NCBI RefSeq assembly: GCF_000003605.2
Contig: NW_003147277.1
Span: 273,797 to 337,796 of the forward strand
Length of the DNA stretch: 64,000 bases
Reading direction: 5' to 3'
DNA from: Saccoglossus kowalevskii
Taxonomy: Eukaryota > Hemichordata > Enteropneusta > Harrimaniidae
The notes beneath the pieces were generated by a model, which saw only the letters and a program-made list of their open reading frames with translations, had not been told where the DNA came from and did not search any database. How positions within the stretch are numbered: the first letter of the stretch is position 1; each line of letters starts with the position of its first letter. Shown one piece after another: positions 1,171 to 64,000 of this stretch. A program made the position numbers and the translations under genes.

Positions 1171-2825
1171 CATATTCACACTATGTCTTAATTACATTTT
1201 ATACAAGAATATTACTGCACATTTGCTATACTCTCTATATTTTTGCATTTGTTTTGAATTATGACTGAAATTTCAAAATATGTAGTGTGTCCAACTGTTG
1301 AACAATAACTTTGACAAATACTGTACTGAAAAATACTGTATTTTTCTGCATCAAACCGAAAGAACTTCACAATCCCGAAAATGGAAAGTCGTAGTGTTCT
1401 GAAACCAATTACAATTGCTTCTCTTTTCCAGGCTTTAATTTCACTACATATACCGGGACATCATAATTGAATTGTCCGAATACGTCACAGGTCTCCTTCT
1501 CTAATGATCAGAAATATTTCATATTATGCATAGGTAAATCTCTAGTGCATGAATTTTAGTTCAATTATTGTATATTGTTTGACTCAGCAACCCGCCTTCA
1601 CACCAAATTCATAACAAAATAGCTCAGCACTAAATACAAAAGAAAGTTTATCAACGTAAGGTGGTCTTTTGTCGCAATCCAAATCCTCCTTGGAAGAGTT
1701 GTAAGCGGACTTTTCCAATGTTGTTTTCCTCCGATACCAACATTACTTACCAATATTCTATAACCTTTTCTAGCGCCACTTGTTTTCCATAGCACTACTA
1801 TTCCTTTCCTTTGAGGATAGTTGTTGTGCATAGTCAATACGCTTTATGTGGGAATATACATTGGTTGTATTTGCCCCTGGTTCATTTGGGTGGATTCCTA
1901 ACTATGCGTCTACAAGGAGTCAAGAATGTCTTCCATACAGTAGATACTATGGTTCAAAACCGGTGCTGTCATTTCGTGTTTAATTTGTATGTATGTACTA
2001 ATGGTGAAATATACGCCTTCCTTTTTTTCTGGTTCCTAAGAGTCCAATTTTATTAAACTTTTCAATATGTCCATTTCCTTGGGGTAATAGATGGTTGTTT
2101 CCTTTACGAGATCCCTTTGCAAAGTTGTCTGATTATTTTTGACGTGAATGTGGCCTCCTGGTCAGAATATAATCACTTTTGGAAACCATTGAGGTTTAAA
2201 AACTGGTCACAAAGATGTTTGGCAGTTGTTTTGCAGTCTGGTTCTAAACTGGTATGGCTATAGCTGGTCTGTTATAGCATATATATTTTTGTTTCTGTTC
2301 ATTGAATAGTATTGATGGCTTGTCTTTATAAGGAGACTTTATATATTAGTAAAGTTGAGGGGTATGGCTTTTTATACTTTTTATACTCACTTCACTTAGT
2401 CATGCCCAACTTCCCTCACTATCTTGGTAATTTTTTAAAGTTCATCTGCTCACTGCATAGTGCTCTCACTGAACTAACTTCACACAAACTTTAGTCACTG
2501 TACATATGATCGTATTAATCTTGTGTAGGTAGGTGATAATAATCATCGGCTAGTTAAGGTTTCAAAGATGTCTCAGCATATCCACCACAACGCCACACAA
2601 ATTGAAAACATTAAAATCCATATCTACAGCCTAGACACCTTCTCACTTATATTCGGTCTGTATGCACCCCTGCGCCCTTTGCTGACTAGATCCTCATCAC
2701 CCTGCTATTTCCACAGCAATGACACATACAAAACATTAAATCTACTCACCATGACTATCACTGTCGACAGCCAAGATCAGCCCAGTAACCAGACAAAACG
2801 CTAGTCACAATTCATCAATGTATAA

Positions 2826-2850
2826 TACACACACATACACACACACACAA
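2826..2850. repeat. (CA)n microsatellite
   Basis: A short, slightly interrupted run of AC/CA dinucleotides inside module R. The related position at 26,270-26,285 has a shorter run. Confidence 0.7.
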
Positions 2851-4017
2851 ATACAAAAGAAAAAAAAATATTCAGCTCCGATAACAAAAACCAAACACGC
2901 AGAGTGACTAATAGTAATCCCTAATAATACAATATGTTTTACTATTTATGCTGCATGCCCCAACTACCTCACTCCCATCACTGTTCCATTGACATACACA
3001 AAGTATAACTTTAATTTCACTCCAGCCCCATTGTGTGTTTATTATTGCATCATTGTAATGAGTTGTGTGATTGATGTATATGTTTTGGCTGATGACCTAA
3101 TGTATTCAAATAAATAGGTTGAACTTTATCAATAAACTATAGTCCGGTGGTTACGTTTATTTGCCTTTGTATATATCTGGCTCTGTACCAGTGGCTTGAT
3201 CGCACACACAAGGGAAGCAAAGTCTGTAAATGTCCATACACTTTAGGTCTACTTCTCAAAAGTAATTTTAAAAAGCTTCTTCATAGATAAAAAATAATTG
3301 TATGGCAAAACTGCAGACAGTCTGACTGATTCTAACAGAATTGTGGATAGCATGTAGGTTCAGTATGTCGTTAATCGAGCAGCAGATGTATATTGAAACC
3401 CAGACACACGATACGATTATATGAACTATTGTATAACCTGGCAAACTATGATTTGATTGACAGATGGACTGTGACCTGTACCTATATTTCACTCTATATT
3501 TTATGATGTACAAAACATAGCTTCAAAAACTGATTTTAAAGAAAGAAATTTTAGATCTAAAACAAATTATATTCTCATGCTAGTTTGCGGTTTGCGGAAG
3601 GAACAAATGTTTTATACCCCTGACCAATAATATTGAATCATATGACGCAACCAGTAATCAGGTCACAATATTACAAGGTATGTAGGGAACTATAGTGAAA
3701 GTTAATGGGCAAGAATTGAATAATCCTCCAGTGGACCATGCGTATTATAAATTATTCTGGTGAACCTGACGTAATGGTATTGCTCACAGTTTACGTTTAA
3801 TAGTGTATTGCCAGATAGGCCTGTGTACTGATCTTGTCTGTGATTTTTTATAGAGTAAATAACCTTGGCCATATCTATGACAATTTATTATTCTGATTAC
3901 TATCAATTCAAATAAGAAACAAATAGTGAGTCTACGGTTGTGAATAGTACGTCGAAGTGCGTGAACTCGGGGAGCGTGGAGGTGCCGGTTTCCTTCCAAA
4001 GAATACACGTATTATTT

Positions 4018-4409
4018 CGTTACAGATATTTCAGCTTTAATAATCTAAACGGCCAACAAGATTACGCTTCGCTGCCCACTTCTCTCCTTCGCTTTTTTAC
4101 AAAGTCTTACAAACTGTCATAAACTCTAAGCCGTGATGGAGTAAATATGCGGCCATCCAATCGCTGCAATCCTTGGAACGATCACATGGTTACCAGGGAT
4201 GCGTCTGATCACGTGATGCAATGGATGTGTCTGACGTTGCTACTACAAAATAAAAAGAATTGCCACTACAAAAATAGTAAACAATCTTTTTATAAAAGTC
4301 CTGTAATATATCTTTATATTGTCTACCCTAAAACATGTAAGTTGTTTATACTAAATAACACTACCAAGGCGTGTGAACCAAATGTGCCTAGGTGATGTCA
4401 CTGACAACA
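4018..4409 (-). mobile_element. Solo-LTR-like relic inside module R
   Basis: About 390 bases that recur at 39,259-39,622 and, less completely, at 20,700-20,990, 28,475-28,725 and 51,135-51,450. Read on the minus strand it starts with TGTTG, contains a conserved tgacatcac block and ends in an AATAAA-like signal followed by a ctgtaac end. Short TGTT/AACA inverted ends with a late polyadenylation signal are typical of a retroelement LTR. No internal region is attached, so it would be a solo fossil. Age looks old, since copies are well diverged and this one was duplicated along with the module around it. Confidence 0.45.
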
Positions 4410-5449
4410 CATCACTGTGATCTTTTGTAAAAATATACAACTATAATCGTTCATTATTTATTGGAACCAATTAATTAAATTAATTAATTAACTCAATTAG
4501 TTTTCTCTATATCACTAACTTTAAGTTTAACCATTCAATTTGATCGAACATACGCTCGAAGCAACAACTGAAAGTGTCCCTACACTTCTACTTATCGATT
4601 GTAATTTTTAAAAGCTTCTTTATCGATAAAAAAATGTATGGCGAAAGAACGAACTACAGGCAGTCTTTCTAGTTTCAACAGTATTGTGGAAAACATGTTG
4701 GTTCAGTAGTCGGTAATCGAGCAGCAGATGTCTATTGAAATCCGGTCAGCATGATACGATTATATGAACTATTGTAGAAACTGGCAAACTACGATTTGAT
4801 TGACAGATCGACTGTGACATGTAGCTATATTTCACTCTAGTTTTTATGATGTAAACTACGAATCTAAAAAAAATGTTTTGATAGAAAGAAATGTTAAGTC
4901 TAAAACAATTTATATTCTTGCGTTAGTTGGCGGTTTGTTGAATTGTGTGCCCCCTTGGCTAGTAATAATGAATCGAATGACGCAATCAATCATCGAGGCA
5001 CAAACTTGTAAGGTATGTAGGGAAATACAGAGAAAGTTAATTGGGAAGACATAACATAATTATAACAGTAAAGTTCAGGGCTGATTTTGGACTTGTACTG
5101 GATTGAAAAAGGTAGTTTATTATCCATCAATTGTTTCAGTGATGATTAGTGTACATCCGGGTCATCTTTCGATTAATCACAGTGTTATGAAATAGCGCCC
5201 GCATACTAATTTAATACTTTATATATTTTACCAGATCTGTTCATGTACTGACTGGAATATAGGTGTATATCTGGAATACAGATTATAATTCCTATTATGT
5301 GAAAAAAAAATTCTGATGAAATAATTTGTTTTAAAAATATCAAAGCTCTACTATGACTACTATGTGATTGACAATCTTTCAATTTATTGTTAATTAAAAT
5401 TATTTTGTCATTTTATTAAATATTTACGATGCTTTTGGTTTATTTAGTT

Positions 5450-7130
5450 GCTTTTATTTGATAAGTAAATATATACCCGTGTAAGATTTGTTTTACTAAT
5501 TGTTTACTGTTGTCGGGTATTATCTACATTATGTAGTTGCCTTTAATTTCTGTTACAATTTCAAATATTATAAAATTGCATCTCGTTGTAATGTAATTAA
5601 AAGTATGGTATAAAAATTGTTTGAGACTTAATAGTAATTTAATTATACGTGTGATATATATTTGTTTTTGAAAAGGCGCACTTATTGCTAATGACGACTA
5701 ATTGAATTTCCAATATTTTCCCGAACATACAATGATTGTTGTGACGTAATTTCGATTGATGAATTGACGGTAAGTAATCACAATATCGATTTCAGCTGTG
5801 ATTTTTGAAGTTATACCTGTGGTGGCGACATTTAGTTTTCAACAATATGATTTTGGAATGAGCGGCGAAAATCCTATATTCAGTTTAGTATGTTTAATTT
5901 GATTGACGAGCTAGGGGCATTTTCGGTTATTTGCATATTTTAAGTCGACAGCGAGCCCAATAATAAATAGTAATATTTCAATAGCAAGCACAAATGGCAA
6001 TGTTACTGCATCTGAGGGGACAAAAAATACAACACTAACGATAACTTTTAACCGACACACTTATTAATTAACTTATTAATTAATTGACATATTTCATCTA
6101 AAACGCGCATACATTACCTCAAAATATACAATGTACCAGAAAAGAACTCGGACGTCTCCAAACTTTATTGTGAATCGTATTTTCTAGACAGACAGCCAAT
6201 GAAAAATATGACTGTTCAACATACTTAAACATAATAATTTAATTATTAATTATTTTAATAACAAATCTTAGAAGCTCTAGGTTCTTAAATCACGCGTACG
6301 ATGTTTATGATTAGTAAACCTGTTAGGGAATTATTTCCATATGCAACTGAAAGTAGTAAATAATAATAATACTATACTATAAGTATGATAATATGAATCA
6401 TTATAACGCCACGAATAAATTAGCATAAATTATCATGAGTTAGACTGGACTATTTGTTTTCATTTTTTCTGAATGGTTCAGTAATGTCGTCTTCACATCC
6501 GGTATCACACCATTTAATGATTTTAATTACGATATTGAAATATAATTATGACGTCATGCTCGTCATATCTTTTATGATTGGACGGTAGAGGTCGCTCTCA
6601 CACACTCACATACATTCACCCTGCCTACGTTAATAACTATGCAGTGTTTTTTTCATACTGGCGGAATTTATTACATAATAGACGTAACATTTTAAAATAA
6701 GTGAGAAAAAAATCTATATGTCGTATGATTTCAGATAATTGAGAATACATTTGATGTGTAGGTAATGATAAATGTCGGTTAGCGATACAGAGACTCGGTA
6801 TTGACTTGAATCTATGAAATAACACACAGACATAACATGTAAACGAGTAAATGTGGACAAGTCCTTGATAAATACGTCTAAACGTTGTAGGCCTCAAGTG
6901 AGATGTTATATATTTACCCGATCGTTGACAAAAATATCGAATTATATTTTCCAACTCTATGAACTGGGATAAGAGTAAACAAGCGCCACGTTCTGTAAAA
7001 TAAAGTATTCTCATATACTGCAAAATAATCCCATAGAATGAGTTTACAAGCGTAGCATAGTTTAGGTAATGATGCAGCTACTCGCCCTCTGTGTCGCTCA
7101 GTGAAAATGAATATAAGTGTAGTGCACAGG
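5450..7130 (+). repeat. Module M, inner flank of unit I
   Basis: This module lies between module R and the gene-bearing part of the unit. It recurs inverted at about 36,840-38,460 and 62,300-63,180. Good anchors are 6,540-6,660 (an acgtcat-rich stretch and a gcgccctct-like block) against 37,200-37,320; 6,640-6,900 against 36,870-37,060 and 62,650-62,810; and 7,090-7,150 against 62,255-62,320. The minus strand has a 128-residue open frame (6,637-7,023), but the aligned copies do not keep it open. I therefore treat it as non-coding. Confidence 0.7.
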
Positions 7131-7149
7131 GTTATTTATTGGATCTTCG

Positions 7150-9310
7150 ATTGTTTTGTTATCTATGAAAAAAACCGCTATATTGTTTATTTCAGTTCAT
7201 ATCCTAAATACACTGTTAACGTCGAGTGTAAGTGTATGTGCTGAATCAGTTTATACGACGCGTGGCTAAACACATTAATGGCGAAGCGATGTGCTGATGT
7301 GTAATCAGTTCATTTTATGTTTTTTGTGAAATCAAAAAACACCCGTCAATACCAATACGCCGTAATTCATATTTCCACTAATCACGCCATAAGCCAGTCC
7401 CCTTATTTACTGTTGCTATGTCCGATATTGGACGGTGAAGTGTTAACTTTGTTTGTAAACATGGCGGGAATATTAATGACGGCATTCACCAATAGTCTGC
7501 ATGGTATTCCTGGCAATATACCGATTTCATATTTTCCAAATTGCGAAAAATTTCAAAAGATTCGCAGGAGAAAGCACTGAAATATTTTATGCAGGAATAT
7601 ATCCATGATATAAAATAAGTGAAGCGGAAGGGGAGACCAGAGTTGACGCCCGGTGTTGGAAATCAATGACAAAATCGAAACCAGCGCATTATATTGAACT
7701 GCAGATTTGTAAAACAACTGGACAACTAATATTCATTGTTCTTGTAAGCTGGGTAAGTGTTTATTTGTTATATCTTTTTTTCTTGGTACAGCCGAAGGCC
7801 TGGATTAGCTATCATCGGCGTACTATTTCGGTATTTGCCGCGCCGATCGGCACGATAGATCGTGCGTCAACCGTCAAGTGCACACTCACGGTGTCTGGTA
7901 TTATTAGAATTTGTGTTTCGCTGTTTTCTATCTCAACATGTTACATCCAGTTATTTAGAAACTCTTGAAATTGTAAATAAGAACTTCCTGAGTGGAGCTT
8001 TGGATCATGAAATGCACTGGCAAAATGCGGGTGGTGTGGCAGCAACTTCAACTTGAATGATATAGACAGCATACCCTGGGATGGGTTTGCTTGCGTCAAT
8101 GTAGAGTAAAACTACTATGAAATCGAAAATAATTTGAAGTAATCACTCGCTGTCTTTGAATATAATTATCAATCAATGTTCAAATACGAAAGTACACAAA
8201 TGTAAATCTTGAACTGACAAACTGCAATTGTCGTCACTAGAGGGCGTTACTACACGAATCACTGCATTACCCTGTTAAAGTTAACACCACTTATTTAAAT
8301 TGTTATCCCCTACAAATCAAATTATGGAAGGAACCTTCATAACCTTCTGAATTTTTTATCGTTGAATTAGTATTGCATATTTCCCTAGTTATTATTGTGT
8401 ATATCTGTTTTTATTTTCAGTTAGAGTGGCCATTGCTCTCATGTGATTGGTGTTCTTAAATCACTGTGAGGATTTAAGCTACACAATCTTACAAGTATAT
8501 ACCAGCAGAACAGAGCTGTACTAGAATTCCACAAAAATGGAATCTTTCAAGAGAACACAAAAAACGCCTTTAAGATTAATCATGTTATAGTAGAAAGACC
8601 ATCAGAACAGAGGAAAAGATAACCAGTGCTTTGTCAGATTAACACAGATAAAAAGTTAGTCTCTCAAAGTTACTCAAAAGAATAGTTTATGTATTGCTTT
8701 TAATCAATACATATTTGAGGTTCTAGACATTTCATGTATACTGGCCATGACACCTTCATACGTTTAGAAAGACTACTGTCATTGTTTTTTTGTTATACCT
8801 ACCTGTTTGGGTTAAAAGAAATATGCCTATCTATACAATTTTAATCTAACCTCGCTAATAATACACCAGTTCTCATCACGCTTTTCACTCACCGTGTGGA
8901 ATATTAGCATGACACCATTGCTGCAAATGTACTATGAACAGTGTGTGGAGGAGCATGTTCCTAGACTATGGATGACTATATTTTTATAATACAATATTCT
9001 TGGGGTGTTGTCAGGGAATGAAGTACCAATTGCGTACTCTCATATTGGTTTATTTTTTCACCAGACTACCTGAAGTGACAGCAGATGAGATTGATGTACT
9101 AAAAACCAGAGGGGCACACTTTTGGAATATATCTTATCATCCAGTACTGCAGTTAATGAAACTGCAAGTGCAGTTAGGATCAATGTTATCTTATCAGGTA
9201 CTATTGTAATGTAACAATATTTGTGATGTCTAGTAAAAAAAAACATGTCATATCATACCATTCATAACTGTACAATACAGTACATAAAAACAATAACACC
9301 AAAGTATTTG
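7150..9310. other. Unit I-specific DNA, no supported gene
   Basis: Alignment with unit III stops near 7,200 and resumes near 13,130, so this is the left part of a roughly 6-kb stretch private to unit I. A start codon in good context (aacATGG, about 7,470) opens a 38-residue frame. A frame starting at 7,666 runs into a consensus donor, gtaagt, near 7,751. Neither resembles anything I know. A CACTAGAGGGC motif occurs at about 8,235 and 9,322 and could mark transposon ends. Confidence 0.3.
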
Positions 9311-9399
9311 CTTCAACCAGGCACCACTAGAGGGCACAATTTATTTGGTTAAATACAAGTACAAATTGTTGGTGATTTTTAACATATATTTACGCAGTT

Positions 9400-10440
9400 T
9401 GCTACATACTTGGACTGTTTTTGTTATTTACAATGCACACACAACACACTGACCAAATGTAAGTATTTGTTTGAACAAAACAGTTGGTATTGTTTGACCA
9501 ACAATTTTAAAATTCTAACTTTACGTTTGAGTCTTTCTATATGAATTCTGTGTTTTGCAGTATGTTGGGTTATTTGTGTCTCATACACTGACATTTGCTT
9601 ACTTGATGATACGAATGGTGGTAAGTTTAGTTTTACCCCAGCTTACCCAACTCTTCTTCTATAGTAAAACCTTTGTCTCCCATAACCACATCTCCTTTGT
9701 TAATGTACCCTTCAGCTATCAAATCCTTCAGTAAAGTTAAATTGATCCTGCAAATAGTTCTGACACAAATATTACTGACCCTCTAGGGTCACAACCAATC
9801 AGTGACTTTAATGTTGTACTGAACTTGTAATCGCCGTAGAGCTGGCTCTGAAGATTTAAAGCACATGTTTTTGTGTTTTTAGTTCAGTGCTATCAATTAT
9901 TACTAGATTTGTTGGAAAATCCCTCAGTCATATTTTTAATTATAACATCTCTGTGAGGCCAGATACTAATTTGAACAAATTTAGATTACATGTGACCATT
10001 CCATGTGTTAAAAACATCCCCAGGTGACTGCAGTGAAAGTCCAAACCTTACTGCTAAATCATTGAGTCCAAAATTGTCGCAATCGACAAAGACACAAGAT
10101 AAAGAATTTTTTGAAGACATATTTTTAACATCTCGCCTTTTTGTAGTATAAGAAACTGAGGTACCTTTAGGCACAAGGAATGGCAAAAGAACTAGAAATT
10201 GGACATAAGTAATTCCAGTATAGTACTTAAAGAGTCCTTTTACTTTGTTCTGATGTTGATATACACCTTGCACAAATCAAAGTCAATCTTTTCTTCAAGG
10301 CTTTTAATCTTCTGCTCTTTCTTTTTTATTTCTAACTCTTGTTTTTCTATGATAATGTTCATGAATTTTGTCATTGTAGTCTGTGTATCTCAGCATATTG
10401 GACTAGCAGATCAATTAATGAAACTCCTGCAAAATAAATA
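9400..10440 (-). pseudogene. DDE_4-type (ISL2EU/Harbinger-like) transposase, decayed
   Basis: Read on the minus strand, successive fragments match a DDE_Tnp_4 transposase in the right order. First comes a lysine/glutamate-rich coiled coil (about 10,290-10,400). Next is an LFKYYTGITYVQFL segment equivalent to the family's 'fYTGLp' motif (about 10,190-10,240). Then come a helix-turn-helix (LNDLAVRFGLS, about 10,030) and a catalytic-core piece (SLIGCDPRGSVIFVSELF, about 9,770-9,830). After it are GDVVMGDKGFTIEEELG (about 9,650-9,700) and an ending with RIHIERLKRK (about 9,545). The family cuts and pastes DNA with a DDE triad. The reading frame is broken several times by frameshifts and stops, so the gene is dead. 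It diverges from the YqaJ-type gene to its right. No intact terminal inverted repeats were found. Confidence 0.75.
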
Positions 10441-10619
10441 AAAAGTTAATGTTTATTGTAGACAAATGACAGAAAGATTATAAAATCTTCACATGGCACT
10501 GGATGTAGGCTTACAACACTACCTCACGATGCACCTATTAAACTGTGAGATGAGTTTGTTTGAAGATTATAGCTAATACGATGCATATAAGTTGGAACTG
10601 CAGACCAGAAAGCAATCAG

Positions 10620-11245
10620 AGAGTAATGTGGGCGGCTGGGAAGCAAGATCATGTCGTCTAACAATATCAAATTTTGTCAGAGTTTTAAACAGGAAAGCAC
10701 TTCCTTCTGACAAATTTCTGAACAGCTTATTTCCCACTAAAAAGTCTGCTCCATCATTAGAATAAGGAAAGCATAATAAATCAAAAGCAACAACTAAATG
10801 TCTTGAAGAGCACCCAGACATACACCTACATGAGTGTGGGTTAATTTTTAATGATGAATACAAATTTGCAGGTGCAAGTATGTGATAGAGGAAGATGTGG
10901 AATTATTGAAATAAAATGCCCCTACAATGCAAGAAATTTACAAATTGCAGAAGCAGTAAACGAAATACTAATGTCACAGAAATCAGATGATGGGACATTA
11001 TATGTAAATGGGACAATCAATACTATGCCAAAGTGCAAAACCAGCTTATGATAACAGGCCTGAATTTTGTGATTTTGTGGTTTATACCAAAAATGACAGT
11101 CTGTAAGCTGAAAGAATTAAGCCAGACATTTGCTTACATGGTAGACTTGCTGGAAAGTCTCGGTTCATTTTTCAAACATCATGCAAAACCATATTTATTA
11201 CAAAAAAATGTCCAGTTTTATGTATATGGGTTGTTTTAATATTAA
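10620..11245 (+). pseudogene. YqaJ-type exonuclease fragment, decayed
   Basis: Three successive plus-strand stretches match a YqaJ-like nuclease. The first is GGWEARSCRLTISNFVRVLN with downstream LFPTKKSAPSLE (about 10,630-10,765). The second is HECGLIFNDEYKFAGAS (about 10,830-10,880). The third is CGIIEIKCPYNARN (about 10,897-10,938), followed by QNQLMITGLNFCDFVVYTKNDS (about 11,032-11,097), read across frames. The IEIKCP signature carries the metal-binding E-x-K of the PD-(D/E)XK fold. Frames change between segments and an in-frame stop follows the second, so it is not functional. Divergent orientation next to a DDE_4 transposase fits one DNA transposon coding for both. My recollection is that ISL2EU-type elements carry such a pair, but I cannot check that here. 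Confidence 0.7.
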
Positions 11246-11399
11246 TTTTATAGAATTAACATAAACACAAACACTACGTACGCAACTCCTCAGTTTGACA
11301 GCTTTCTTCTCTTATAGTTTTATGTTAACTGTTTTCATTTTCTTTATTCACGGCGAGCATACTTTAAGTATGGAAAAAAGGATGAGATTTATAGTGATG

Positions 11400-12040
11400 C
11401 AAACACCAAGAGTCGAAAAAACTTGAAAAATTAGAACTAGCATTCCCATCCTGTAATTTTGATTTTTTGTGTGTATCACTACAGTACCCCACTACTCCAC
11501 CATATACCATTCAGAGACATACTGTAACAGGTATTACAGTATTTTGTGTTTACATCGTACCATTCGAACNNNNNNNNNNNNNNNNNNNNNNNNNNNNNNN
11601 NNNNNNNNNNNNNNNNNNNNNNNNNNNNNNNNNNNNNNNNNNNNNNNNNNNNNNNNNNNNNNNNNNNNNNNNNNNNNNNNNNNNNNNNNNNNNNNNNNNN
11701 NNNNNNNNNNNNNNNNNNNNNNNNNNNNNNNNNNNNNNNNNNNNNNNNNNNNNNNNNNNNNNNNNNNNNNNNNNNNNNNNNNNNNNNNNNNNNNNNNNNN
11801 NNNNNNNNNNNNNNNNNNNNNNNNNNNNNNNNNNNNNNNNNNNNNNNNNNNNNNNNNNNNNNNNNCAAACTTGAAAAATTAAAACTAGCATTCCCATCCT
11901 GTAATTTAGATTTTGTGTGTGTATCCCTACAGTACCCCACTACTCCACCATATACCATTCAGAGACATACTGTAACAGGTTTTACTGTTTACAGTATTTT
12001 GTGTTTACATCCGACCATTAGAATGCCTTGTTTTGTGTGT
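11400..12040. repeat. Tandem repeat spanning an assembly gap
   Basis: A unit of roughly 170 bases, starting near cttgaaaaatta and including cagtaccccactactccac, occurs just before the N run (about 11,420-11,569) and again right after it (11,866-12,035), in direct orientation and nearly identical. The 296-base gap is therefore probably an unresolved tandem array of the same unit; the true length is unknown. No coding potential. Confidence 0.8.
11570..11865. other. Assembly gap (296 Ns)
   Basis: A run of N. The open frames that cross it are artefacts. Confidence 1.
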
Positions 12041-12196
12041 ATTTTACTAACAAATATATGATAGGCCTGGGAGAAATAATACAATCTCTCATCAGAAGTA
12101 AATATTTAATTTTCAAAGACAAATAATTCATTAAACTGCCAAACAGGTTATGGTTTCAGAGTTACAACAGTGATTATCTAATATAAATTTTCTTCG

Positions 12197-12309
12197 ATGG
12201 CTTCAAGTTCAAGTAGATTCACCAGCATGTTTGCTTTTCTTCAGGGGTTGCCTGAGAGGCGTTCAAGAAGAAGGGATTCAAATAAACATATTAATAACGT
12301 TAATATAAG
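12197..12309 (+). other. Possible first coding exon, unidentified
   Basis: An ATG in fair context (ttcgATGG) opens 37 codons beginning MASSSSRFTSMFAFLQGLPE and turning strongly basic (RRSRRRDSNKH). It ends at a plausible donor, AG|GTAAAT, at 12,309-12,310. I see no acceptor or continuation exon and recognise no family. It lies in the unit I-specific stretch next to the DNA transposon and could be part of it. Confidence 0.2.
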
Positions 12310-16800: not shown

Positions 16801-16979
16801 TAACCCACAATGATAAATGAACGAAACGTGTTGAACTCGTTTGCTGCTTTACGGAGAAATAATATTGAATGATCAGTGGATTTTTGTGATATGATTATAT
16901 TTACTTTTTATTGAACTAATCTCGTTAAGCAATAGATAAAATAAAACATATCTACTAATTTCCCCCCAAAACACCATCA

Positions 16980-53900: not shown

Positions 53901-54319
53901 CGCAATTATTGATGGACGTGATGTTACCACAGTAAGTTGTCAGTGTGTAGTATTGTGATAATACAATCAGAATTTCTTTTTTAATTCAGCGATCATAACA
54001 AGATGATAAACAATTACTCATTCAACAGGGACGTACAGGTGGACAGGTGACTGACGCAAAAGTTATAACAGTCCAGGAAGAAGAGAAAGATATTAAACTG
54101 CATTTCACATCAAAGGACACGACATTCTCACTTAAATGGACCCTGAGAAAGCACGCATTAGATGTATCCTACTCTGGCTCTTTTTACAGCGGTAAGCTAT
54201 GCGGTCTGATGGGTAATGCAGATGATGATCCCCGCAATGACTTTCAGAAACCTGATGGTACTATTACAAAAAACGCTATTGAATTTGGTGAAAGCTGGAA
54301 AGTAACTGATAAGAAGTAA
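50973..54319 (+). CDS. Secreted C-type lectin-VWD protein, gene C
   Basis: Predicted coding exons are 50973-51032, 52270-52294, 52640-52786, 52940-53081, 53331-53395, 53693-53931 and 54029-54319. All junctions are GT/AG with phases 0,1,1,2,1,0, giving 322 residues. Order: signal peptide (MLRLLLILAVTCLTLAVPHE), a short basic linker, a C-type lectin domain with WIGV, EPN and WND (exons 3-5), and a VWD domain from CEPHMRTFDERTYNFQG to EFGESWKV (exons 6-7). In exon 7 it differs from gene A at 8 of 96 residues, mostly conservative, which suggests selection on the protein. Exon 3 starts with three extra codons compared with A. A possible extra glycosylation site (NFT) is present where A has DFT. 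The stop overlaps GTAAGT (54,316-54,321). Likely a secreted calcium-dependent lectin; its ligand and tissue are unknown. Confidence 0.87.
51135..51450 (-). mobile_element. Solo-LTR-like relic in intron 1 of gene C
   Basis: The same family and relative position as 20,700-20,990 in gene A. On the minus strand it runs from gttatcaatgacatcacat to gaataaatctggactatct. An old fossil that predates duplication of the gene. Confidence 0.45.
52010..52260 (+). repeat. GC-richer dispersed element Y in intron 1 of gene C
   Basis: Counterpart of 20,060-20,285, abutting exon 2 in the same way. It contains gagctacgtcacagaacatt, gttgctaagacgcgcaccac and a ggcctttgtattcatcgaga block. Confidence 0.6.
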
Positions 54320-55480
54320 GTTGAATTTTCCTGTACATCTATTAAACTAAAGACTAGTCCTCTCTCATTATTGTATGATTGTTTTTGAATTTGTTTCTTC
54401 TGACTGGATCAGTTGTAAATAGAAACAGGCAGATATTTTTTTAAACGTGCATCACTCTCATTTTCTGGATATAATTTTAGGGAGTACACGAGCGAATTCT
54501 TTGGACATGAACTACAATAATTTCCAATAAAATCTGTAGCGATCACATGATATCTGGCGCCATGATTCTTTCCTGTGAACCGACAATCGACGCCAACAAA
54601 TCTAATTGCTTGCCAATGAACATATTGATCTGAATTTTGGATTGGATCTAAGGAATTATTTCAAATCAATACAACAATTGTCATATAGTATATGTTGTGT
54701 CTCTCTTCTATCGCAGAGTAGAAAAATATTTCCTTCCATAATCCAAAAATCCATATTGCGCATGTAAAATGTATAGTAGGAGCTTTTTACGAAACCAAAA
54801 AATAGGTTTTGACAAAAGTGACAATATTTTAGGATATATGATTAACCAATCAACTCACTTGCCAACAACAGTTGGTATGTAGCATATATTGTCAAAATAA
54901 TAAAAATTATAATATTGGACGTCTTTTGGGAAAATTTTGACAAATTCGTCATTTGTTTCCCATAAGTACTTTATCTGATCATTTTGTTATTTTATATGTT
55001 ATTCTATTGGTCCGATATGTCTGAAATTCGGAGATGCATTCAGCCCCCCAATCATGTGGCTAGAACAGTTGGCCATATATACCACCATAATGGCTGTCAT
55101 GCCGCCATCCCGCCATCTTATTGATTACGAAATTGCTTTGTTGTCTTTGAGCTTGAACCCAAATACTATGAGATGTCACAATGGTAATTTTTATTTCAGT
55201 ATTCACAAATTGATAAAGCTAGTTTATTTTATCTGTTCATGTTATAGATAAGACCAGGAAGCCAACAACTGACGAAACGACGGGCGTCGTGACAGCTTCA
55301 TTAGTTTTAGAGATCCCATATCTGTTAACAATTTATGATGGTGGCTTTTGGGGGGAAATTAGTAAATATGTTCTATTGCATCCATTGCTCAACAAGGTTC
55401 AATAAAAAGCAAGCAAAATCAATAATCCACTGATCATTCAAAATTATTTCTTTGTATAGCAGCAAATGAGATCATCTGTC
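54320..55480 (+). other. 3' flank of gene C, conserved in all units
   Basis: It aligns with 16,860-18,199 inverted and 32,612-33,540. An AATAAA lies at about 54,522. No open frame is shared. Homology ends at about 55,480, where a unit III-specific insertion begins. Confidence 0.55.
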
Positions 55481-56285
55481 TTTCGCTGGTTCACGTAGTA
55501 ATGGCCACATTGTTCCACTGGGCCGGGATTCCTGCCCAAAGTCGCGTGACTAAATGACGTAATTTGATAACATAAAATTCTTTTTCTGCAAACAAGTCTT
55601 CATTACGTCGTGCCCATACATTCTGCTTGCTTAGCCTTATATACTTAAGTTGTTTCTGGCATTTCTCGCTGTTTTTGTGCGAAGTTATAACAAAAGAAAC
55701 AGTTTTATATTCGTCCAACTTTCGTGAGTAAATGGAAACCCCTACTCTAGGGCCACGAGCGTAAGTGCCAACATCAGGTAACCAAGGGATAAAGAACAAG
55801 CAACGAGAAAGTGACCAACCAGAACCGAAGCTTGGTACGCCAAGACACTTGAGGCGGGAACCAGCCAATGTCTGTCTATGGAGACTGCGGGGTTTCTATA
55901 CCTACTGGCCTCTCTTTCAGGTCTTCTGAAACAGGAAGTATTTGAGGGCGCTTGACTTATGAAAAGAGTATAATCTCGGGGTGGAGCTACGTCACAGGAC
56001 GTTCCACGTTGCTAAGACGCGCACCACTGTACCATGCATTTCTATGGGCTTTGTGCGCGCTGCTGTGGAGCGCTGGTCGAGTCCGTGAAAATTCGAGAAA
56101 ACAACATAAACTCAACCTTGAAATAATCCTGAACAACCAAATTTAAATATGTTACACATGCAGGGCTAATCTTGTTACACTGTTCGGGAGTGTCCCAACA
56201 ACCATCCCAAAGTACCGTTTTTCTGCGGGTTTTTGGCCTTTGTTTTCACCGCAATGGTTGCCAGGTGGTGAAAATGCCCGGATTG
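55480..56285. mobile_element. Unit III-specific insertion with a third copy of element Y
   Basis: This GC-richer block is absent from units I and II. Homology resumes after it at about 56,285 (taaattacacatcggtct). Its right half, from about 55,975, is another copy of element Y (ggagctacgtcacaggac, gttgctaagacgcgcaccac), with about 100 bases more than the intron copies. The left half has a 125-codon minus-strand frame (55,868-55,491) of unknown kind. Probably a mobile element of which the intron copies are shortened relatives; no clear terminal repeats were found. Confidence 0.45.
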
Positions 56286-56289
56286 GGGT

Positions 56290-56880
56290 AATATAAATTA
56301 CACATCGGTCTGCAAGATACATTACAATAAGATTTTAATATTTATTAAACTATTTATCAAAATAGCCCAGCTCGAAATTGCCAACTTACCTGGGTCAAAT
56401 ATTCTACTGAGATTTCAAGTCGACACAAACGAAATAATTCTTTAGCTTTAAACACCGAAGCCAACGAGTACAAGAGTACATTACAACCGTAATGTCACGC
56501 TACTTGAGCAAAATCTGTGTAGAAAAGCAAACAACGCTTTCGTGTGAAATATAGGTCTCCAAATAATGTTGGTTTTATGAAGTAGAGTAAATGCAGATTG
56601 TTTGTATAAGTCATAAGTAACATATTGGCCAGGTATTATCTTGAAACGTGTGCGAACTGCCATGTCGACATTTGCACTGAACTGCGCTGGAGGTGAACTG
56701 CAACTCACGGCACTGGCCTGAAGCTGGGTGTCAACTGTCAACTCGTCATCACAGTCGTCTTGCACGAACAAAAGAATATTAATTATCAACGACAATACAT
56801 GCGGTTTATCCTAATTCTGCAGCTGGGCAAGCCTCGCTAGCTAACTGGGCATTGTCACAATACATGTATTTACTATTACA
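56290..56880 (-). repeat. Triplicated conserved block, unit III copy
   Basis: Counterpart of 15,440-16,040 (inverted) and 34,370-34,990. It retains the ggcaagcctcgctagctaac box at its right end. A 104-codon minus-strand frame (56,795-56,481) overlaps it, but the aligned frames in the other copies are not equivalent. I read it as non-coding. Confidence 0.35.
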
Positions 56881-56882
56881 GC

Positions 56883-57139
56883 TGAACGGCTTAGTCTTTT
56901 CCGCGAAACAAAACGAAACAAAACGAAAGCGCCATCAGTGTTCAACAATTTCAAAAAGGCTGTCACGTCATGTCAGCACAAATGAATCGAGTTGCAAATT
57001 AGGCGGAAAAGAGGTGGAAACTAAATATTTTCGACAACTTTATTTCTGTGACATGGCGATGTTTGAAGTTGTTCAAAATTGAAGGTTAGGGTTCAGGTTA
57101 GGGTTTTGTTTTGTTTCGTTTTGTGGAAAAGACTAAGCC
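56883..57139. mobile_element. Small foldback MITE, inserted only in unit III
   Basis: About 257 bases with long terminal inverted repeats: ggcttagtcttttccgcga at 56,888 and its complement ending at 57,139 (tggaaaagactaagcc), extending about 37 bases on each side with aaaacgaaac repeats. Inner sequences also pair (gttcaacaatttcaaa-aaggctgtcac against gtgacatggcgatgtttgaa), so it can fold over much of its length. CAGC flanks both sides and occurs once at the empty site in unit II (attacagcaaaaaa, about 34,990), giving a possible 4-base target duplication. No coding capacity. A ggttagggttcaggttaggg stretch lies just inside the right end. Confidence 0.75.
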
Positions 57140-60100
57140 CAGCAAAAGACAACAACAAAATTACGCAACGATAAGCAAATTAAGACACAGTCATTCAGGG
57201 TTGGAGAAAGGTTGTTGGCTTATTGCCAGCTGTGGGTTCTGCTCTAGATGCCATGTTTTACGGTCCATATCCGGTTCTCAGAAAGGTTGATGACAAAAGT
57301 GTCAAATTAATATGCTGAAATTTTATCATGATAAAATAAAAATGCAGAATATTGCGTTGGTCAGGTTTAATAACTCTTCTATATTTTCTGAATCGATACT
57401 AAACTGAAACCTTTGCTCTATCAGAAAGTGAAAAAAAGATTTAAAGGTCTTAGTTTCTGGTTACCCCTGGACGAAATTTGCGTAAATAGATTTTATAGTA
57501 GTCAAGGGAACAGGACATATTAAACAACCCCCTTCCCGCAATAGAGTTAGTCAAACATAATTTTGATAAAGATTAGAGTATATGCATGAAAGTGGTGCTC
57601 TGAACTTGTCCCGACGCCTGTTTGCTCTGTTAGAAGTTGTAAAGACTGTAGGAGAATTAATGACTCTTTTCCTATCCCAAACAAATGCAAATTTATATAT
57701 TATTTTGTCTAAGAGCGACCTTACTGGGATACGAAAGGTATTGGGGATTATTACAAAAATGTTGCTCTAATTTCTCTGCTGGAGCCGCATAGCTTTATTG
57801 ACAAAAGCAGCTAAATTTGTAAGAAATCCTGATTGTCAATATTCGTTTGGCAAAATTAATTTTTTGTTGATGACTTCCGTAGTGATGAAGCATCATCGAT
57901 TGAATACTAAAGAGTCTTATCTGATATGACAATGAAAACGTTTATTTTAAATCTTATATTTTTTGGTCTCATAAATACTCACCAATTCTTTAAAATGACT
58001 ATATATTTTAGTAAGATTTAATTTTTAATCTTGTTTGAAACCTAAAAAATGTATTTTAAAAATATTTATGTTATAAAGTGTGCCTAATCTGTTGCAGACC
58101 ATGATGCATGTTGACATTTCGGTTTAACAGCATTTCACAAAAAAGTGCTGTTTTATAGATTATATATAGTTTAGATAATGTATAGTTAATAGGATTGATA
58201 TTAAAAAACATTCATTTCTTCTCTGCTCTCTAAAATTGTATAATGAGTGTGCTTCAAATCAAAAGTAGTTCAGGGGATTTTTAAACCAGGTATGTCTGCA
58301 AAGTTTTTTCTTTGCTTGACATCTATTTCTAGATTTTTCGCATTAACATTTATTTTGATGTGTTTTTTTTTCTGTTATTGCGTGAGGGCGTATATCGATT
58401 ATTTAATATTTACATTGGGCATTGGGTCTGTTGCGATTGTAATAAATAAACTAATGCTCATCATCATGTTCCATGAGCAATAACAATTTCAAACAATGTG
58501 TCTGTCATCTATTTTGTCGCAAAAATTATTCCTACTATTGCCACTATTTATTTATAGATTTGAATTTTCATCTATGTCATTGACATATGAGCATCATCAA
58601 TATTAAATTTAACTAAACAAATAACAGGACGAGTAAATTTAATGATGCATTAATAGTTATTATTTTGTTGAAACTAAAATAGTATATGTTAAATATATAT
58701 CAAATGTCAAATGGAGTTAAATAAGGTTAAAATTACACGCCGAGACGTGTTTTTTGTATTCAGATTTTTTACTTCCTCATAGGTTGTAATGCGATTAAAC
58801 ATTTCCCGGAGTATTTATGACATCTGCATATGTGTATATTAAACTATTCTGGTGATGAAAAGTACTTTTTGCAATTGCAACAAGAAATGTGGAGCTTCGA
58901 ATCAATTATTAAAAATGTATGTGAAGCTCATGGAATCTAAAGAGAAAATGGTTGAAACAACAATAATCACGTGGAATTACAATTACGTCTTTCAAGTTAC
59001 CATGCCTGCCTTTCTGCTGATGTCAGATATATCCGGAAAGCCACATATTTAATGTATATTAGAAACAGAAAAACAGTGTGTAATATAGAATTCGCACACT
59101 TTATTAAGCTGATGAGGATTTTTACACAAAATTTGGTAGTTCTCATGGAAAATATTACTTGCAAAATGAATACTTGTCACAATTCCACACGAAGGCGTAC
59201 AATGTATTACGAACCAGACTCTACAATAGAGTTTGTAATACATCCGGATATACCTCATGGACACGAAATAACAAGTTTAGACTCTTATAATGTCCGATAA
59301 TTTCAATTATTCACATGCTCAGTACGACACTTAGTACAAAATTCAACTTGACAGTCTTTCACTAAAACTGTCTTCAATGCACCATGCGTTGGAACAGCTC
59401 ACCACTCGCACGCCGCATTTTATATGTGTTGGCACCTTGCCCACTTCACACTGCTGAATTACCCAGCACACTAACCTACTTTGCATGGCAAAATTAGTCT
59501 CATTCATCACTCCAGGCTACACTAGTAAAATTCCATACAATTACCTGTTTGTGCAGACCCCTAACACCCAATTAATACTCTTATACAAGCACACTGCTAA
59601 TTTAAACCATGACCTGATTCATGTACACGTGGAAAATAGTCGTCAAGCAACCACTAGACAAATAAGTAGATTACGTAATACACACAACGTTTTTAAAGTT
59701 ATAATTGTATTGCTTTTACAGTACTGTAACCTACGCACAAATTATTAGTCAGTATAACACCAAAATAGGGATAATTATGTCAAAAATTTCAACATTGTTA
59801 GCAAAGACATTGTGCTTACAGAAAACTTGTATAATAATTAAATATTTGATCATAATGACTCGCATGACGCGTTTTTATATTTGGGTTGTTATAAGTAAAT
59901 ACCAATAATTATTTTGTGCGATGTTTGCATACATTTTTTAACCCTTGATACATAGAAACTTATGTGATAAAAAATATTTGTGCTGACACCACTAGTGACG
60001 ATTACCGAATATTACTTCGTTTTATAAATACCAACATATATTCTGCATTTTCTATCGTTTTATTTAGTGTCATAGGTGGAATCCTGTGGTTGCTGTATTC

Positions 60101-60640
60101 ACAAAACAGGGTAGCAGAAACGTAGGAGTGACTTACTAACTATCTGATGCAAAAAACGTGTTTTGAGGAGCTCTGGCCAATGCATGGCAGACATGTGCAG
60201 TTAGTTAGAGTTGTAATCTGTACATGGGAAGACGTCACTAAAATGTATTATTATTATTGTTTCATAATCTTCTCTTGCATATCGGGCGACGTAGTGGTAT
60301 AGTTGCTGGTAAGCATCTGCTTATAAAACCAAATTCAGCTCCAGGTGTGACAAATTGTTAAGTTGTGTATTGCTGGTGTTGTAGATAAAAAGTTTATTAC
60401 GTTTATTACAAACAAAATTTGAAAAATTCTTTTTAAAAATAAATAAATATTTTTTTTAATTATTTAATAAGTTACCCATTCATTGCAACTTCCACTGTCT
60501 TCCACATGAATGTAATGAAATAACAAAAATGCCTTGAAACAGCGCCTCTGCAGTTCAATTCATTCAACAGTTCAAAAAAAGATATAAATGAGCGCCCTCT
60601 CTATGTAGATATATTAAAAACATCTGCTCACACTAAACAC
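57140..60640 (+). other. Distal 3' flank of unit III, no gene seen
   Basis: Parts match unit I inverted (59,310-59,460, 59,740-59,850 and 60,540-60,605). Parts are private, for example about 57,900-59,300, and 59,465-59,700, which looks like an insertion. Open frames of up to 109 codons (58,971-59,300) have no recognised similarity and no conserved partner. Confidence 0.4.
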
Positions 60641-62250
60641 AGCGCGAACACATGGATTCCCTTGAAACTACACAGAGTCAACTTTCAAAATACATGTATG
60701 CATTGTTATAATTTATTTGCAGCAACAAATGGTGATTTGATGCCTTATTGTCCTATTTTTAAAAATACTAAGCGTAACCAAGTGTTGTGTAGAGTCAGTA
60801 CCCTGGTTGAAACGGCCCTTGCTTGTGAGCGAGAGTGCATGAGAATAACTATGACGTCATTGTCTAGACGTACCTTTTCGTGTATTGTATTTTACTACAG
60901 ACAGTATCGTTTATCTGCTTGTAATTTTAATAACGTTTTTAATATCTTTTACATTTGAGTGTGCTTTGTTTGAAATCTGTCAGCTGTGTAATTGAATTAA
61001 CTTTGAATTTGAAACCCATAAGGTGTCGTCTGCCGAGTATTACCAAGTCGTGACGTCATTTGACTTCGTTTACGATGTAAACAATATGGTAGCGCCCATG
61101 TAACGAGCCCGTAATCCTGATAATACTGTTCGATCGTGGATATTGCATTGGATACATTGTATAGTGATACCCGACGCAATTGGCATACTGAATCACTGTG
61201 TTCGAACAATTTCCTGCATGACAACAGTGATTGTGACATTTATCGTGCTTTGATTGACGAGTAGTATACCAGTGCGCTGTAGCTGTGACCGGCCAAGAAT
61301 AATCAGTTCTCGCATCGCCTGCTGTGAACAAGCATGTAGTGGACAGTTATTGGCAGTTTTGGTAGTGTTTTGCACAGTATTATCTGACAGTGTATTGTTA
61401 TTTTTGATATCATATTTAGCTGTGTTATGATATAAGCAGCATTTACTGAGTAATAGTTATCACCAGTTTAAGTTAGTATTACTAGTTAAAGAAAATATCA
61501 AAGGGGAGTATACCTTCAATATATTTGTTAAAGCGAGGTTGAAGGTTGCTTTGATATGTCTCCTGTGTTGCCATGATGACATGCCGCATATTTGAAGGTT
61601 GATTTGCATTGTTTGGCATACCACTTATAATAGGGTTGTTTTGGTACACCCCTCGGCTTTAATTGGGGACATATGCTAACAAATGCGTTGTATGTCACCT
61701 GGGTAACTCCGGACAAGTGCGTGACCCTTTGAGTGCACCCTCTAGTATTATAATTCGAGTAAAGTGTGTTTTGACTAATCTGTCATTTGTTCTTAAACCT
61801 GATGATCGATACATACCAATGGTTTTTACTGTGTTGTATTTCTTGCATGGTACTGAAGTCAATTTTGACGGTAGACGTGTCAGCCCTAGGATACTTATAT
61901 GTTCTCCTCCCATGTATAATCCCTTTTAGCCGGTACTGGAAAGTGAGAAGGTTACACAAGGAAATGTTTAAAACATGATTTCGATCGTCTGCAAAGATTA
62001 CTCGGTGATTAGCGAGGGCTGTAAAATTGTTTTGATAGAACACTAGTATATTTATATCAGTAAAACAACATTCAATTACATTCTGTTCATGTTGCTCATT
62101 GTAATACATTTGATTATAACCTAAACACATGGTTATGTCGCATCAGTTGCATATATCACGGTTGCCTTTAACAAACTAGTCTTCCAAAACTACTCTTTAT
62201 GAATGCAAGAAAAAAACGCTTATGAGGCGATATATGAAATATTCAAATGC
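60640..62250. other. Unit III-specific DNA, no supported gene
   Basis: It replaces the roughly 6 kb of unit I between 7,200 and 13,130. The frames at 60,662-60,958 (98 codons) and 61,663-61,929 (88 codons) are open with fair composition but unidentified. I see no transposon ends. Confidence 0.3.
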
Positions 62251-63180
62251 GTTATCAATAGATAACCCTGTGCACTACACTTAAATTAACTTTCACTGAG
62301 CGACATGGAGGGCGAGCAGCTGCAGCATTACCTAAATTATACTATGCCTGCTGTAGAACCCAGTATTACTATGTCTCACCACATCAATACTCCAAAAGCA
62401 AAGTATAAACCAAATTACACGATCCACGCCATGTGAAAACCGGCAGTTAAAAAACATCTACCAGCACTTTTTCTACTGCTTCTAATTCTTCTTCTATTTC
62501 GAGAATTAAATCTAACCGTAAACTCATTCTATGTGATCATTTATGCAGTATACGAGAATACTTTCAAAGTTTTCATACAAAACAAGGTGTTAGTTTACCC
62601 TCATCCTAGTTCAGGGGGTTGTAAATTTATATGTCACTTTAAAGATTGAGGCCTGCAACGTTTAGAAGTATGTATCCAGCACTCATCCACATTTACCCGT
62701 TTACATGGTATGCCTGTGTGTTATTTCATAGATTCAAGTCAATGCCGAGTCTGTTTATCGCTGCCCAACATTTGTCATTACCTTCACATCAAATGAATTA
62801 TCAATAATTGTTAATCGATTTTATTTTTTACTTATATCGTACCTTGTAAATACTCTTTAAATTTATATTTTATGTAACTATTTCATAAATTTTACGTCTA
62901 TTATATGTAATAAACTTCGTCAGCATGCAACCATGTCGCGTATTTATTAACGTAGGCAGGATGCCCAATCATAACATTTGTGTTGGGCGAGGTGTCATAA
63001 ATATATTGCGATGTCATAATTAAAAAAATAAATAAAAAAAGATCAAACTGGAAATGGTGTGATACTGAATGTGACGACGTCATTACTCGAACGCTTAGAA
63101 AGAAAAGTTGAATGCATTTTATTATTTCAAATAAATTTCAAATGAGCATTGAAGAAAAACTCTATTACATTATTGTAAAA
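62250..63180 (-). repeat. Module M, unit III copy (shortened)
   Basis: Inverted counterpart of 5,450-7,130 and direct counterpart of 36,840-38,460. It contains gagcgacatggagggcgagc (62,298) and the ttacccgtttacatgg to aagtcaatgccgagtc segment (62,690-62,750). About half the length of the other copies. Confidence 0.65.
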
Positions 63181-64000
63181 CAGATCTTATACGGTGTTTA
63201 TTTACTCATCAAATAAAAGCAACACACAGTACATGAGCAGATCTGGTAAAAAATATAAACTTTTAAATTATTGTGCTGGAGCTATTTTATTTATGCAGTA
63301 TACGATAATACTGTCATTAATCGAAAGACGATCCGGATGTACACTGATTATCACTGAAACAATGTATTGATAATTAGGTAACTATTTCACAATCCGAACA
63401 AGTCCACATTCAGCCCTGAACTATGCTATTATAATTATGTTAGTATGTCTTGGCAATTAAATTTCTATATATTTCCTTACATACAATATTGTGACTTGAT
63501 GACTGGTTACGTCATACTATTCAGTATCACTAGTCACGCATTGCACAACATTGTTTCACATTCCGCAAACCGCCAACTAGCGCAAGAATAAAAATTGTTT
63601 GAGACCTAGCATTACTTTCCTTAAAAGCAGTTTTTGGAGCTATGTATTGTACATTATGAAAAATAGAGTGAAATATAGCTACAGGTCACAGTCGATCTGT
63701 CAATCAAATCATAGATTGCCAGTTTATACAATAGTTCATATAATCGTATCGTGCTGTCAATAGACATCTGCTGCTCGATTAACGATTACTGAACCAACAT
63801 GTTATCCACAATTCTGTTAAAAATAGAAAGACTGTCTGTAGTTCGTTATTTAGCCATACAATTATTTTTATAAAGATGAAGAAGCATTTTAAAATTACAC
63901 TCGATAAGTAAAATATGTAGAAGTGTAGGAACACTTGCAGTTTTTGCTTCTAGCGTGTAGGATAAGTTGAAGTTTCAGTTGAATGCTTAAATTTAAAGTT
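63180..64000 (-). repeat. Module R, unit III copy, runs off the window
   Basis: It matches 4,560-5,450 and 28,735-29,770 inverted and 38,460-39,110 direct. One core copy (about 63,490-63,950) includes atagacatctgctgctcgat. The unit therefore continues beyond the window. Confidence 0.75.

Follow-up and report, generated by a model that had tools for sequence, protein, structure and literature searches.

An old cluster of direct and inverted segmental duplicates carrying a secreted lectin gene in Saccoglossus kowalevskii

The lectin-VWD genes

The window analysed here, a 64,000-nucleotide stretch of Saccoglossus kowalevskii contig NW_003147277.1, contains at least four units of a duplicated segment, I and IV on the minus strand and II and III on the plus strand. 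The protein product of the duplicated gene has three parts: signal peptide, C-type lectin domain and von Willebrand D domain (VWD). Gene I (18204..21145, minus strand) was modelled with seven exons (21145-21086, 20038-20014, 19598-19461, 19308-19167, 19071-19007, 18825-18587 and 18490-18204); all 6 of its 6 modelled introns have GT/AG ends and its open frame is 318 amino acids long. Gene III (50973..54315, plus strand) encodes the same three parts in seven modelled exons (50973-51032, 52270-52294, 52640-52786, 52940-53081, 53331-53395, 53693-53931 and 54029-54315). The introns of the two genes, of GT-AG type, fall at conserved positions. There may be an additional short last exon near 18.0 kb in gene I and at 54,481 in gene III. 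Gene models disagree on the frame of the last exon, which leaves the C-terminal end uncertain.

Both modelled proteins match the Pfam Lectin_C and VWD profiles, with values of 7.7e-14 and 7e-20, respectively, for gene I and 1.3e-14 and 3.8e-20 for gene III; the Lectin_C scores are 52.8 and 55.3 bits against a cut-off of 22.6, and the VWD matches are near full length (from profile position 5 in I and 6 in III to the last, 156). Each protein contains EPN and WND, which we take to be the calcium-dependent sugar-binding motifs. The nearest PDB entries to the VWD of gene III, the copy used as query, are Fc-gamma-binding protein and VWF. C8 and TIL, the modules that come after VWD in an assembly of the VWF/mucin D type, had no Pfam match in the two modelled proteins, and downstream exons may lie outside the models. 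Judging from these domains, the products of genes I and III are probably secreted lectins that would bind sugars in a calcium-dependent manner and use the VWD module in assembly or adhesion; their setting is probably mucus, adhesion or innate immunity.

The 5' region and exon 1 of genes I and III are identical at 431 of 486 aligned columns; no TATA-like motif was found at 50,547-50,972, upstream of gene III. Other searches of the window found no Rfam match at gathering score and, with the bacterial code setting, no tRNA. Seven stretches of the shared segment, in a scan of low power for further coding genes, had no strong three-base periodicity, and the 30 Pfam entries (29 distinct) scanned, from a minority of the listed open reading frames, gave nothing above cut-off beyond Lectin_C and VWD.

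Units of the duplicated segment and the DNA between them

Unit I (626..25409, minus strand), as delimited by its chains of matches with III and II, is the longest copy, running from a 5' end near 25,409 to a 3' tail near 626; the final piece of this tail, 626-1,016, matches unit IV only. Unit IV (25806..29888, minus strand) is partial and consists of tail only, the homologue of the stretch at about 0.6-5.5 kb in unit I. It contains an internal duplication and has one piece (27,004-27,435) out of order; its chain with I takes in only 3 of 9 matches (2,541 columns, 72.2% identity), and it is not simply collinear with I. Unit II (31954..40932, plus strand, from chains with I and III) is truncated at its 5' end, begins in intron 5 and is without the signal-peptide and lectin exons. 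Unit III (48000..64000, plus strand, from its chain with I) extends beyond the window, matching I up to position 64,000. The tails of the units carry related repeats of about 500 bp, R; the pair of these called Ra and Rb seems to be older than the unit duplications, judging from a branch that joins the four Rb copies with a support of 0.992.

Alignment and three-frame translation of the VWD exons of copy II (31995..32605, plus strand) reveal insertions, deletions and a stop in the part that resembles exon 6 and a further stop in the part that resembles exon 7. Because of these in-frame stops copy II is a pseudogene, of which only the VWD exons are left.

Touching the 5' edge of unit II is an inverted 31-bp scrap of intron 3 of the gene (31922..31952, minus strand), found by sequence match, which is 93.5% identical to 19,355-19,385 in I and 90.3% identical to 52,863-52,893 in III; its score against I is 27, and the top score among 60 shuffles was 24. 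This short, AT-rich scrap is possibly a remnant of the gene of unit IV at a head-to-head junction. The DNA that separates II from III (40970..47970, minus strand, limits approximate) holds a degraded element whose translations include reverse transcriptase-like, RNase-H-like and tyrosine-recombinase-like stretches, in this order. From the resemblance of these motifs it is a candidate DIRS/Ngaro-like element; no supporting Pfam match was found among the entries scanned.

Collinearity of the units

Self-BLAST of the window and chaining of its matches place unit I in inverted orientation relative to II and III, which are direct repeats of one another, with consistent order. The I-III chain contains 22 of 28 matches (10,414 aligned columns, 75.6% identity), the I-II chain 13 of 15 (7,379 columns, 74.4%) and the II-III chain 8 of 11 (3,725 columns, 77.7%); each of these three pairs has one match on the wrong strand (208, 266 and 360 bases, respectively). 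When unit I was compared with 20 first-order Markov shuffles of unit III, a control for the I-III pair, each shuffle gave 0 matches. The blocks shared by I, II and III cover introns and flanks in addition to exons, and they lie in fixed order at one locus, as expected of a clustered segmental duplication. Since introns and flanks are included in the copies, the multi-copy segment arose by segmental duplication at the DNA level. The copies of this lectin-gene segment are several in number, old and diverged, and in part rearranged, and they face both ways.

A sequence-only reading of the window had described three collinear units, I on the minus strand and II and III on the plus strand, and this arrangement is borne out by the chains; self-comparison and pairwise alignment of the units recovered every anchor set that it named. 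The first set corresponds to 6,711-7,009 with 37,064-36,757 (I-II, 84.9%), 6,735-7,047 with 62,808-62,518 (I-III, 74.5%) and 36,862-37,234 with 62,631-62,957 (II-III, 73.7%), the second to 15,389-16,491 with 35,036-33,907, 15,431-15,973 with 56,881-56,282 and 34,416-34,994 with 56,286-56,882, and the third, 21,870-25,409 with 48,000-50,540, was found as several separate blocks. The count of three must be raised to at least four by the partial minus-strand unit at 25,806-29,888, and the length of about 20 kb given for each unit was too generous: unit II, which is without the 5' part, spans about 9.0 kb, and only 47% of the span of I aligns with III.

We note that sharing between the units is broken up, most strongly in I. 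The DNA shared by I and III amounts to 9,867 of the 20,893 bases spanned in I and 9,918 of the 16,001 spanned in III, and that shared by I and II to 6,958 of the 8,966 bases of the span of II, so that the unaligned part is 53% of I and 38% of III in the first pair and 22% of II in the second. The proposal that rearrangements can be read from private insertions holds only in part. Among units compared without an outgroup, DNA private to one of them may have been inserted there, deleted from the others or diverged beyond recognition, and three shared non-coding blocks conflict as to the most divergent unit (p ~5e-5).

Divergence between the copies

Genes I and III are intact over their seven modelled exons and are identical at 286 of 318 residues. 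Their coding sequences give a dS of 0.172 and a dN of 0.049, a dN/dS of about 0.29 (95% bootstrap 0.18-0.47), and the differences by codon position number 17, 13 and 36. The expectation that the segment could be dated stands for relative dating only, by the dS of 0.17 between the intact genes.

Non-coding divergence bears on the possibility, named in the sequence-only reading as what would refute it, that the units are alleles or misjoined contigs; the cluster would then be an assembly artefact, a scaffold wrongly put together from diverged haplotypes or repeat-collapsed contigs. The three shared non-coding blocks differ between units by K2P distances of 0.11-0.28 and five I-III introns by 0.11-0.44, values above the range of ordinary allelic divergence; only the 96-base intron 6, at 0.066, is as close as a misjoin might lead one to expect. 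Alleles should also be equal in content, and the units have their own unshared DNA, as the less than half of I that aligns with III illustrates. The sole run of N in the window (11,570-11,865) lies within unit I, and the unit junctions are free of such runs. The two flanks of that run are repeats of one another (157 columns at 90.4%, with a best core of 110/114) and look like the ends of two contigs that were never merged, perhaps a sign of imperfect haplotype merging at that point. We consider it quite unlikely that the cluster as a whole is such an artefact.

It is very unlikely that the units are separate insertions of one mobile element, such as a large transposon with a captured lectin gene. 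The closeness of several units in both orientations and the recurrence of the R repeats in their tails would agree with such an origin, but the units end at differing internal points, five edge stretches read by eye revealed neither common terminal repeats nor target-site duplications, and the 30 Pfam entries, drawn from some of the frames, included no transposase-like match above cut-off. That only exons are repeated, with coding conservation and chance or repeat matches between them, has next to no probability and is refuted by the I-III chain, since, although blocks that contain exons are among the best conserved, fewer than 1,000 of its 10,414 columns fall in modelled exons (965 bases in III), its order is collinear and the shuffles gave 0 matches, and the seven stretches scanned had no strong three-base periodicity, in a scan of low power where even the stretch holding the known exons was weak.

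Possible exchange between inverted units

One tract of unit IV (29288..29433, minus strand) is nearly identical to 38,524-38,670 of unit II, at 142 of 148 columns (95.9%) against 72% along the II-IV chain. Over the 140 columns of this tract that can be aligned three ways there are 3 differences between II and IV, 18 between I and II and 21 between I and IV. The tract was chosen after the fact because of its high identity, and it is a candidate for recent exchange between the inverted arms. Units I and II likewise agree closely over part of the tract (111 of 119 columns, 93%), and local constraint could therefore explain some of the II-IV identity.

The earlier description of the window as a complex palindromic cluster is right as to the inverted arms; with arms only about 75% identical, this is an old cluster and not a homogenised palindrome. 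The palindromes of the human Y chromosome have gene-bearing inverted arms. The present locus is like them in this respect and in possible exchange between arms, and unlike them in that its arms are not near-identical along their length (75.6% for I-III and 74.4% for I-II, with the single tract at 95.9%). The II-IV tract, the relationships that change from block to block and the inverted scrap at the junction could together suggest that inverted lectin-VWD units keep swapping short tracts, with the pseudogene unit as donor, and that the locus makes new lectin variants in this way. We regard this as unlikely; if true, the inverted layout would not be passive debris, and the locus would be a generator of lectin variants in an invertebrate.

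Proposed history

We are confident, though short of certain, that the window is an old segmental-duplication cluster with inversion, followed by deletion, insertion and perhaps local exchange. The ancestral segment would have been about 15-20 kb long, comprising a lectin-VWD gene of seven or eight exons together with the 5' region of that gene and an extended 3' flank, and duplication would have produced the units seen here, which number at least four, I and IV being minus and II and III plus. Tandem duplication and inversion, or an inverted duplication, may have set IV against II in a head-to-head arrangement, deletion at the centre between them would later have taken away the greater part of IV together with the 5' half of II, and other DNA, including the DIRS-like retroelement, would then have parted II from III. 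Occasional conversion or unequal exchange may have blurred the relationships of the units. A four-way alignment of the tails, in which 7 of 337 sites are informative, puts I and II in one group and III and IV in the other (bootstrap 917.5/1000). One inverted duplication of a tandem pair, which predicts I with III and II with IV, is disfavoured, as these are not the groups found, and on so few sites we claim no sequence of events among the units.

Relation to known gene clusters

In the springtail Folsomia candida there are palindromic collinear blocks within scaffolds, and the sections of that report considered here attribute 11 of 15 within-scaffold blocks to inverted duplication and give a synonymous rate of 0.2 for a palindrome containing Dscam2 (PMC5490193). 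The present cluster is similar in having gene-bearing collinear blocks, inverted duplication and a location on one scaffold, with a comparable divergence (dS 0.17). It differs in its small extent, its single gene per unit, the unequal completeness of its four units, the presence of a truncated pseudogene and the retroelement-like DNA that parts units. The amphioxus VCBP cluster, as described in the consulted parts of its report, is of another family (V domains and a chitin-binding domain) and varies between haplotypes, whereas the variation here is between units on one sequence (PMC2632668). In the core of Macrostomum adhesion protein 1, C8 and TIL continue and EGF-like domains are present, according to the consulted sections of that paper (PMC8621496), whereas the two proteins modelled here have no C8 or TIL match. 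The portions of PMC11797021 examined contain nothing on a lectin-VWD pair.

Though its layout is clean, the cluster reflects the ordinary expansion of a gene family by duplication, and it leaves the general understanding of duplication unchanged. It is a readable example of secreted lectin genes multiplying by segmental duplication with inversion, the copies later being truncated, parted by transposon-like DNA and perhaps partly homogenised. With two intact, constrained copies beside one dead copy, the locus is a natural case for learning which parts of the segment selection keeps, including the well conserved 5' region.

Organization of the units

The window (G+C about 36% by base count over 64,000 bases) contains, in order, units I (626-25,409, minus strand), IV (25,806-29,888, minus), II (31,954-40,932, plus) and III (48,000-64,000, plus, continuing past the window end). 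BLAST comparison of the window with itself gave 82 distinct pairs at E ≤ 1e-10, with matches of at least 80 columns listed. When the sequences are oriented by unit, the best collinear chain between I and III includes 22 of 28 matches (10,414 columns, 75.6% identity), that between I and II 13 of 15 (7,379 columns, 74.4%) and that between II and III 8 of 11 (3,725 columns, 77.7%). On the wrong strand the I-III, I-II and II-III pairs gave one short match apiece (208, 266 and 360 bases), and 20 first-order Markov shuffles of unit III against unit I, the pair on which this control was run, gave none. The homology between units is interrupted: aligned bases in the I-III chain amount to 9,867 of the 20,893 spanned in unit I and 9,918 of the 16,001 spanned in unit III, and those in the I-II chain to 6,946 of 17,249 (unit I) and 6,958 of 8,966 (unit II). 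The sequence-only reading had described three copies of one segment; its example anchors were all recovered by self-BLAST and the collinearity of I, II and III stands, but the number of units does not, a fourth, partial unit (IV) having been overlooked.

A block at 6,711-6,899, 36,876-37,064 and 62,646-62,795 is 88-91% conserved in all three larger units. It lies some 11 kb beyond the 3' end of gene I, has no Rfam match, and gave no clear coding signal in a three-base periodicity scan of I and II, which has low power. About 5.9 kb of unit I (7,141-12,998) matches nothing else in the window and would be either a private insertion or a stretch lost from the other units. Inside it is the single N run of the window (11,570-11,865), bordered within 11,419-12,023 by two copies of one sequence (90.4% identical over 157 columns, with a core of 110/114); these flanks resemble a pair of contig ends left unmerged, or else a small tandem duplication.

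Genes I and III

The lectin-VWD genes of units I (18,204-21,145, minus) and III (50,973-54,315, plus) each comprise seven exons, and in the I-III alignment their GT-AG introns fall at corresponding positions. Their spliced frames are open for 318 and 321 amino acids, respectively, and 286 of 318 aligned residues are identical; the final few codons are tentative, since the two genes read a possible eighth exon in different frames. The genes differ at 17, 13 and 36 sites in codon positions 1, 2 and 3, with dS 0.172 (bootstrap 0.11-0.25), dN 0.049 and a 95% bootstrap range for dN/dS of 0.18-0.47, and K2P distances of their six introns are 0.32, 0.18, 0.14, 0.11, 0.44 and 0.066, the last from 96 bases. 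Pfam Lectin_C and VWD are well over cut-off in both proteins. A PDB search with the gene III protein found 131 distinct sequences at E ≤ 0.01; among the best 60 of the 131, the nearest to the VWD part are Fc-gamma-binding protein and von Willebrand factor, and the nearest to the lectin part are C-type mannose receptor 2 and surfactant protein D. The N-terminus resembles a signal peptide, and the EPN and WND motifs suggest a putative calcium-dependent sugar binding activity.

A short repeat of about 150-250 bp is present in the first intron of both genes (20,726-20,982 in I and 51,251-51,459 in III) and again in the tails of unit IV (28,526-28,731) and unit II (39,257-39,620); its orientation to the unit varies, and it is probably a dispersed repeat. 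Another lies in the same intron of both genes (20,059-20,285 and 51,989-52,213) and at 55,975-56,283, in a stretch found only in unit III (about 55.5-56.28 kb) that breaks homology with I and II downstream of gene III.

Copy II and unit IV

Homology of copy II to unit III begins at 31,954, inside the intron that leads into the first VWD exon; copy II therefore has neither the signal-peptide nor the lectin exons. Its VWD-like exons carry insertions, deletions and in-frame stops, and copy II is thus, judged by its sequence, a pseudogene. Directly left of the unit II edge, 31,922-31,952 is an inverted match to intron 3 of genes I (93.5%) and III (90.3%), scoring 27 and 25, respectively, where the shuffle maximum is 24 (n=60, against I only). 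This scrap is short and rich in A+T, and its matches in I and III are not independent witnesses, so it is no more than suggestive; it is consistent with a head-to-head junction at which a lost IV gene would have abutted II.

Unit IV shows homology to the tail at the 3' end of unit I (roughly 626-5,511), but with an internal duplication and one displaced piece, so that its chain with I takes only 3 of 9 matches. The unit tail carries a pair of related repeats of 500 bp, called Ra and Rb. A tree built from ten copies joins the four Rb copies (at 3,196 in I, 26,640 and 27,757 in IV and 39,955 in II) on a branch with support 0.992; of these, that at 27,757 overlaps other Ra and Rb copies by just 103-160 columns. 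The four Ra copies (4,540 in I, 38,666 in II, 63,448 in III and 28,732 in IV) fall outside this branch with low mutual support, and two copies that are only distantly related and lie upstream of the genes (24,914 in I and 48,497 in III) are placed among them at the tip of a long branch. The tree, with its Rb branch, suggests that Ra and Rb are older than the copying of the units.

DNA between units II and III

Apart from short weak matches, self-BLAST of the window and inspection of the edges found no unit homology at about 40,970-47,970. Its minus-strand translations include, in order, reverse-transcriptase-like, RNase-H-like and tyrosine-recombinase-like stretches broken by frameshifts; these would form a putative degraded DIRS/Ngaro-like element, and Pfam searches of the pieces tested gave no match supporting this. 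An 86-bp direct repeat (43,135-43,220 and 45,083-45,168, 85% identical) lies inside this region, and the approximately 1.9 kb of other sequence between its copies interrupts the retroelement-like DNA.

Divergence and origin of the units

K2P distances among I, II and III are 0.11 to 0.28 in three shared non-coding blocks, 0.105-0.136 in the VWD stretch including introns and 0.064-0.112 in the two VWD exons alone. This divergence, the large parts that units do not share and the absence of N runs at unit junctions disfavour misjoined haplotypes as the source of the units, although the N run with repeating flanks in unit I and the one short intron of K2P just 0.066 speak for them. A gene-carrying transposon is likewise disfavoured, since the unit ends differ and no shared termini were apparent when the unit edges were read by eye.

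The nearest pair varies by block (II-III at 17,112-17,614, 0.114; I-II at 6,463-7,047, 0.138), and private-difference counts are unequal from one non-coding block to another (chi-square 25.1 across the three, 4 d.f., p ~5e-5); such heterogeneity could come from a change in rate or from exchange between units. The Ra tail has only 7 informative sites in 337 four-way columns, 5 of which pair I with II and III with IV, with 1 and 1 for the alternatives (bootstrap 917.5/1000). This grouping departs from the mirror pairing expected had a tandem pair undergone one inverted duplication.

Positions 29,288-29,433 of IV and 38,670-38,524 of II are alike at 142 of 148 columns, where the II-IV chain averages 72%, and in 140 three-way columns there are 3 differences between II and IV, 18 between I and II and 21 between I and IV. 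This tract, spotted first and tested afterwards, is a candidate for recent local exchange between inverted units; local constraint may contribute to the similarity, because the tract was chosen post hoc and I and II are likewise similar over part of it (111/119 columns).

Relation to known clusters

The lectin-then-VWD order of the present genes is also reported for Macrostomum adhesion protein 1, in whose core C8 and TIL follow (PMC8621496). Springtail palindromes with a Dscam2 synonymous rate of 0.2 (PMC5490193) and the VCBP cluster of amphioxus, which has inverted repeats, pseudogenes and an Ngaro-like retroposon (PMC2632668), show that inverted or repeat-laden clusters of duplicate genes are already known. 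The present locus is a genuine, well-ordered cluster of this known type, but an unsurprising one.
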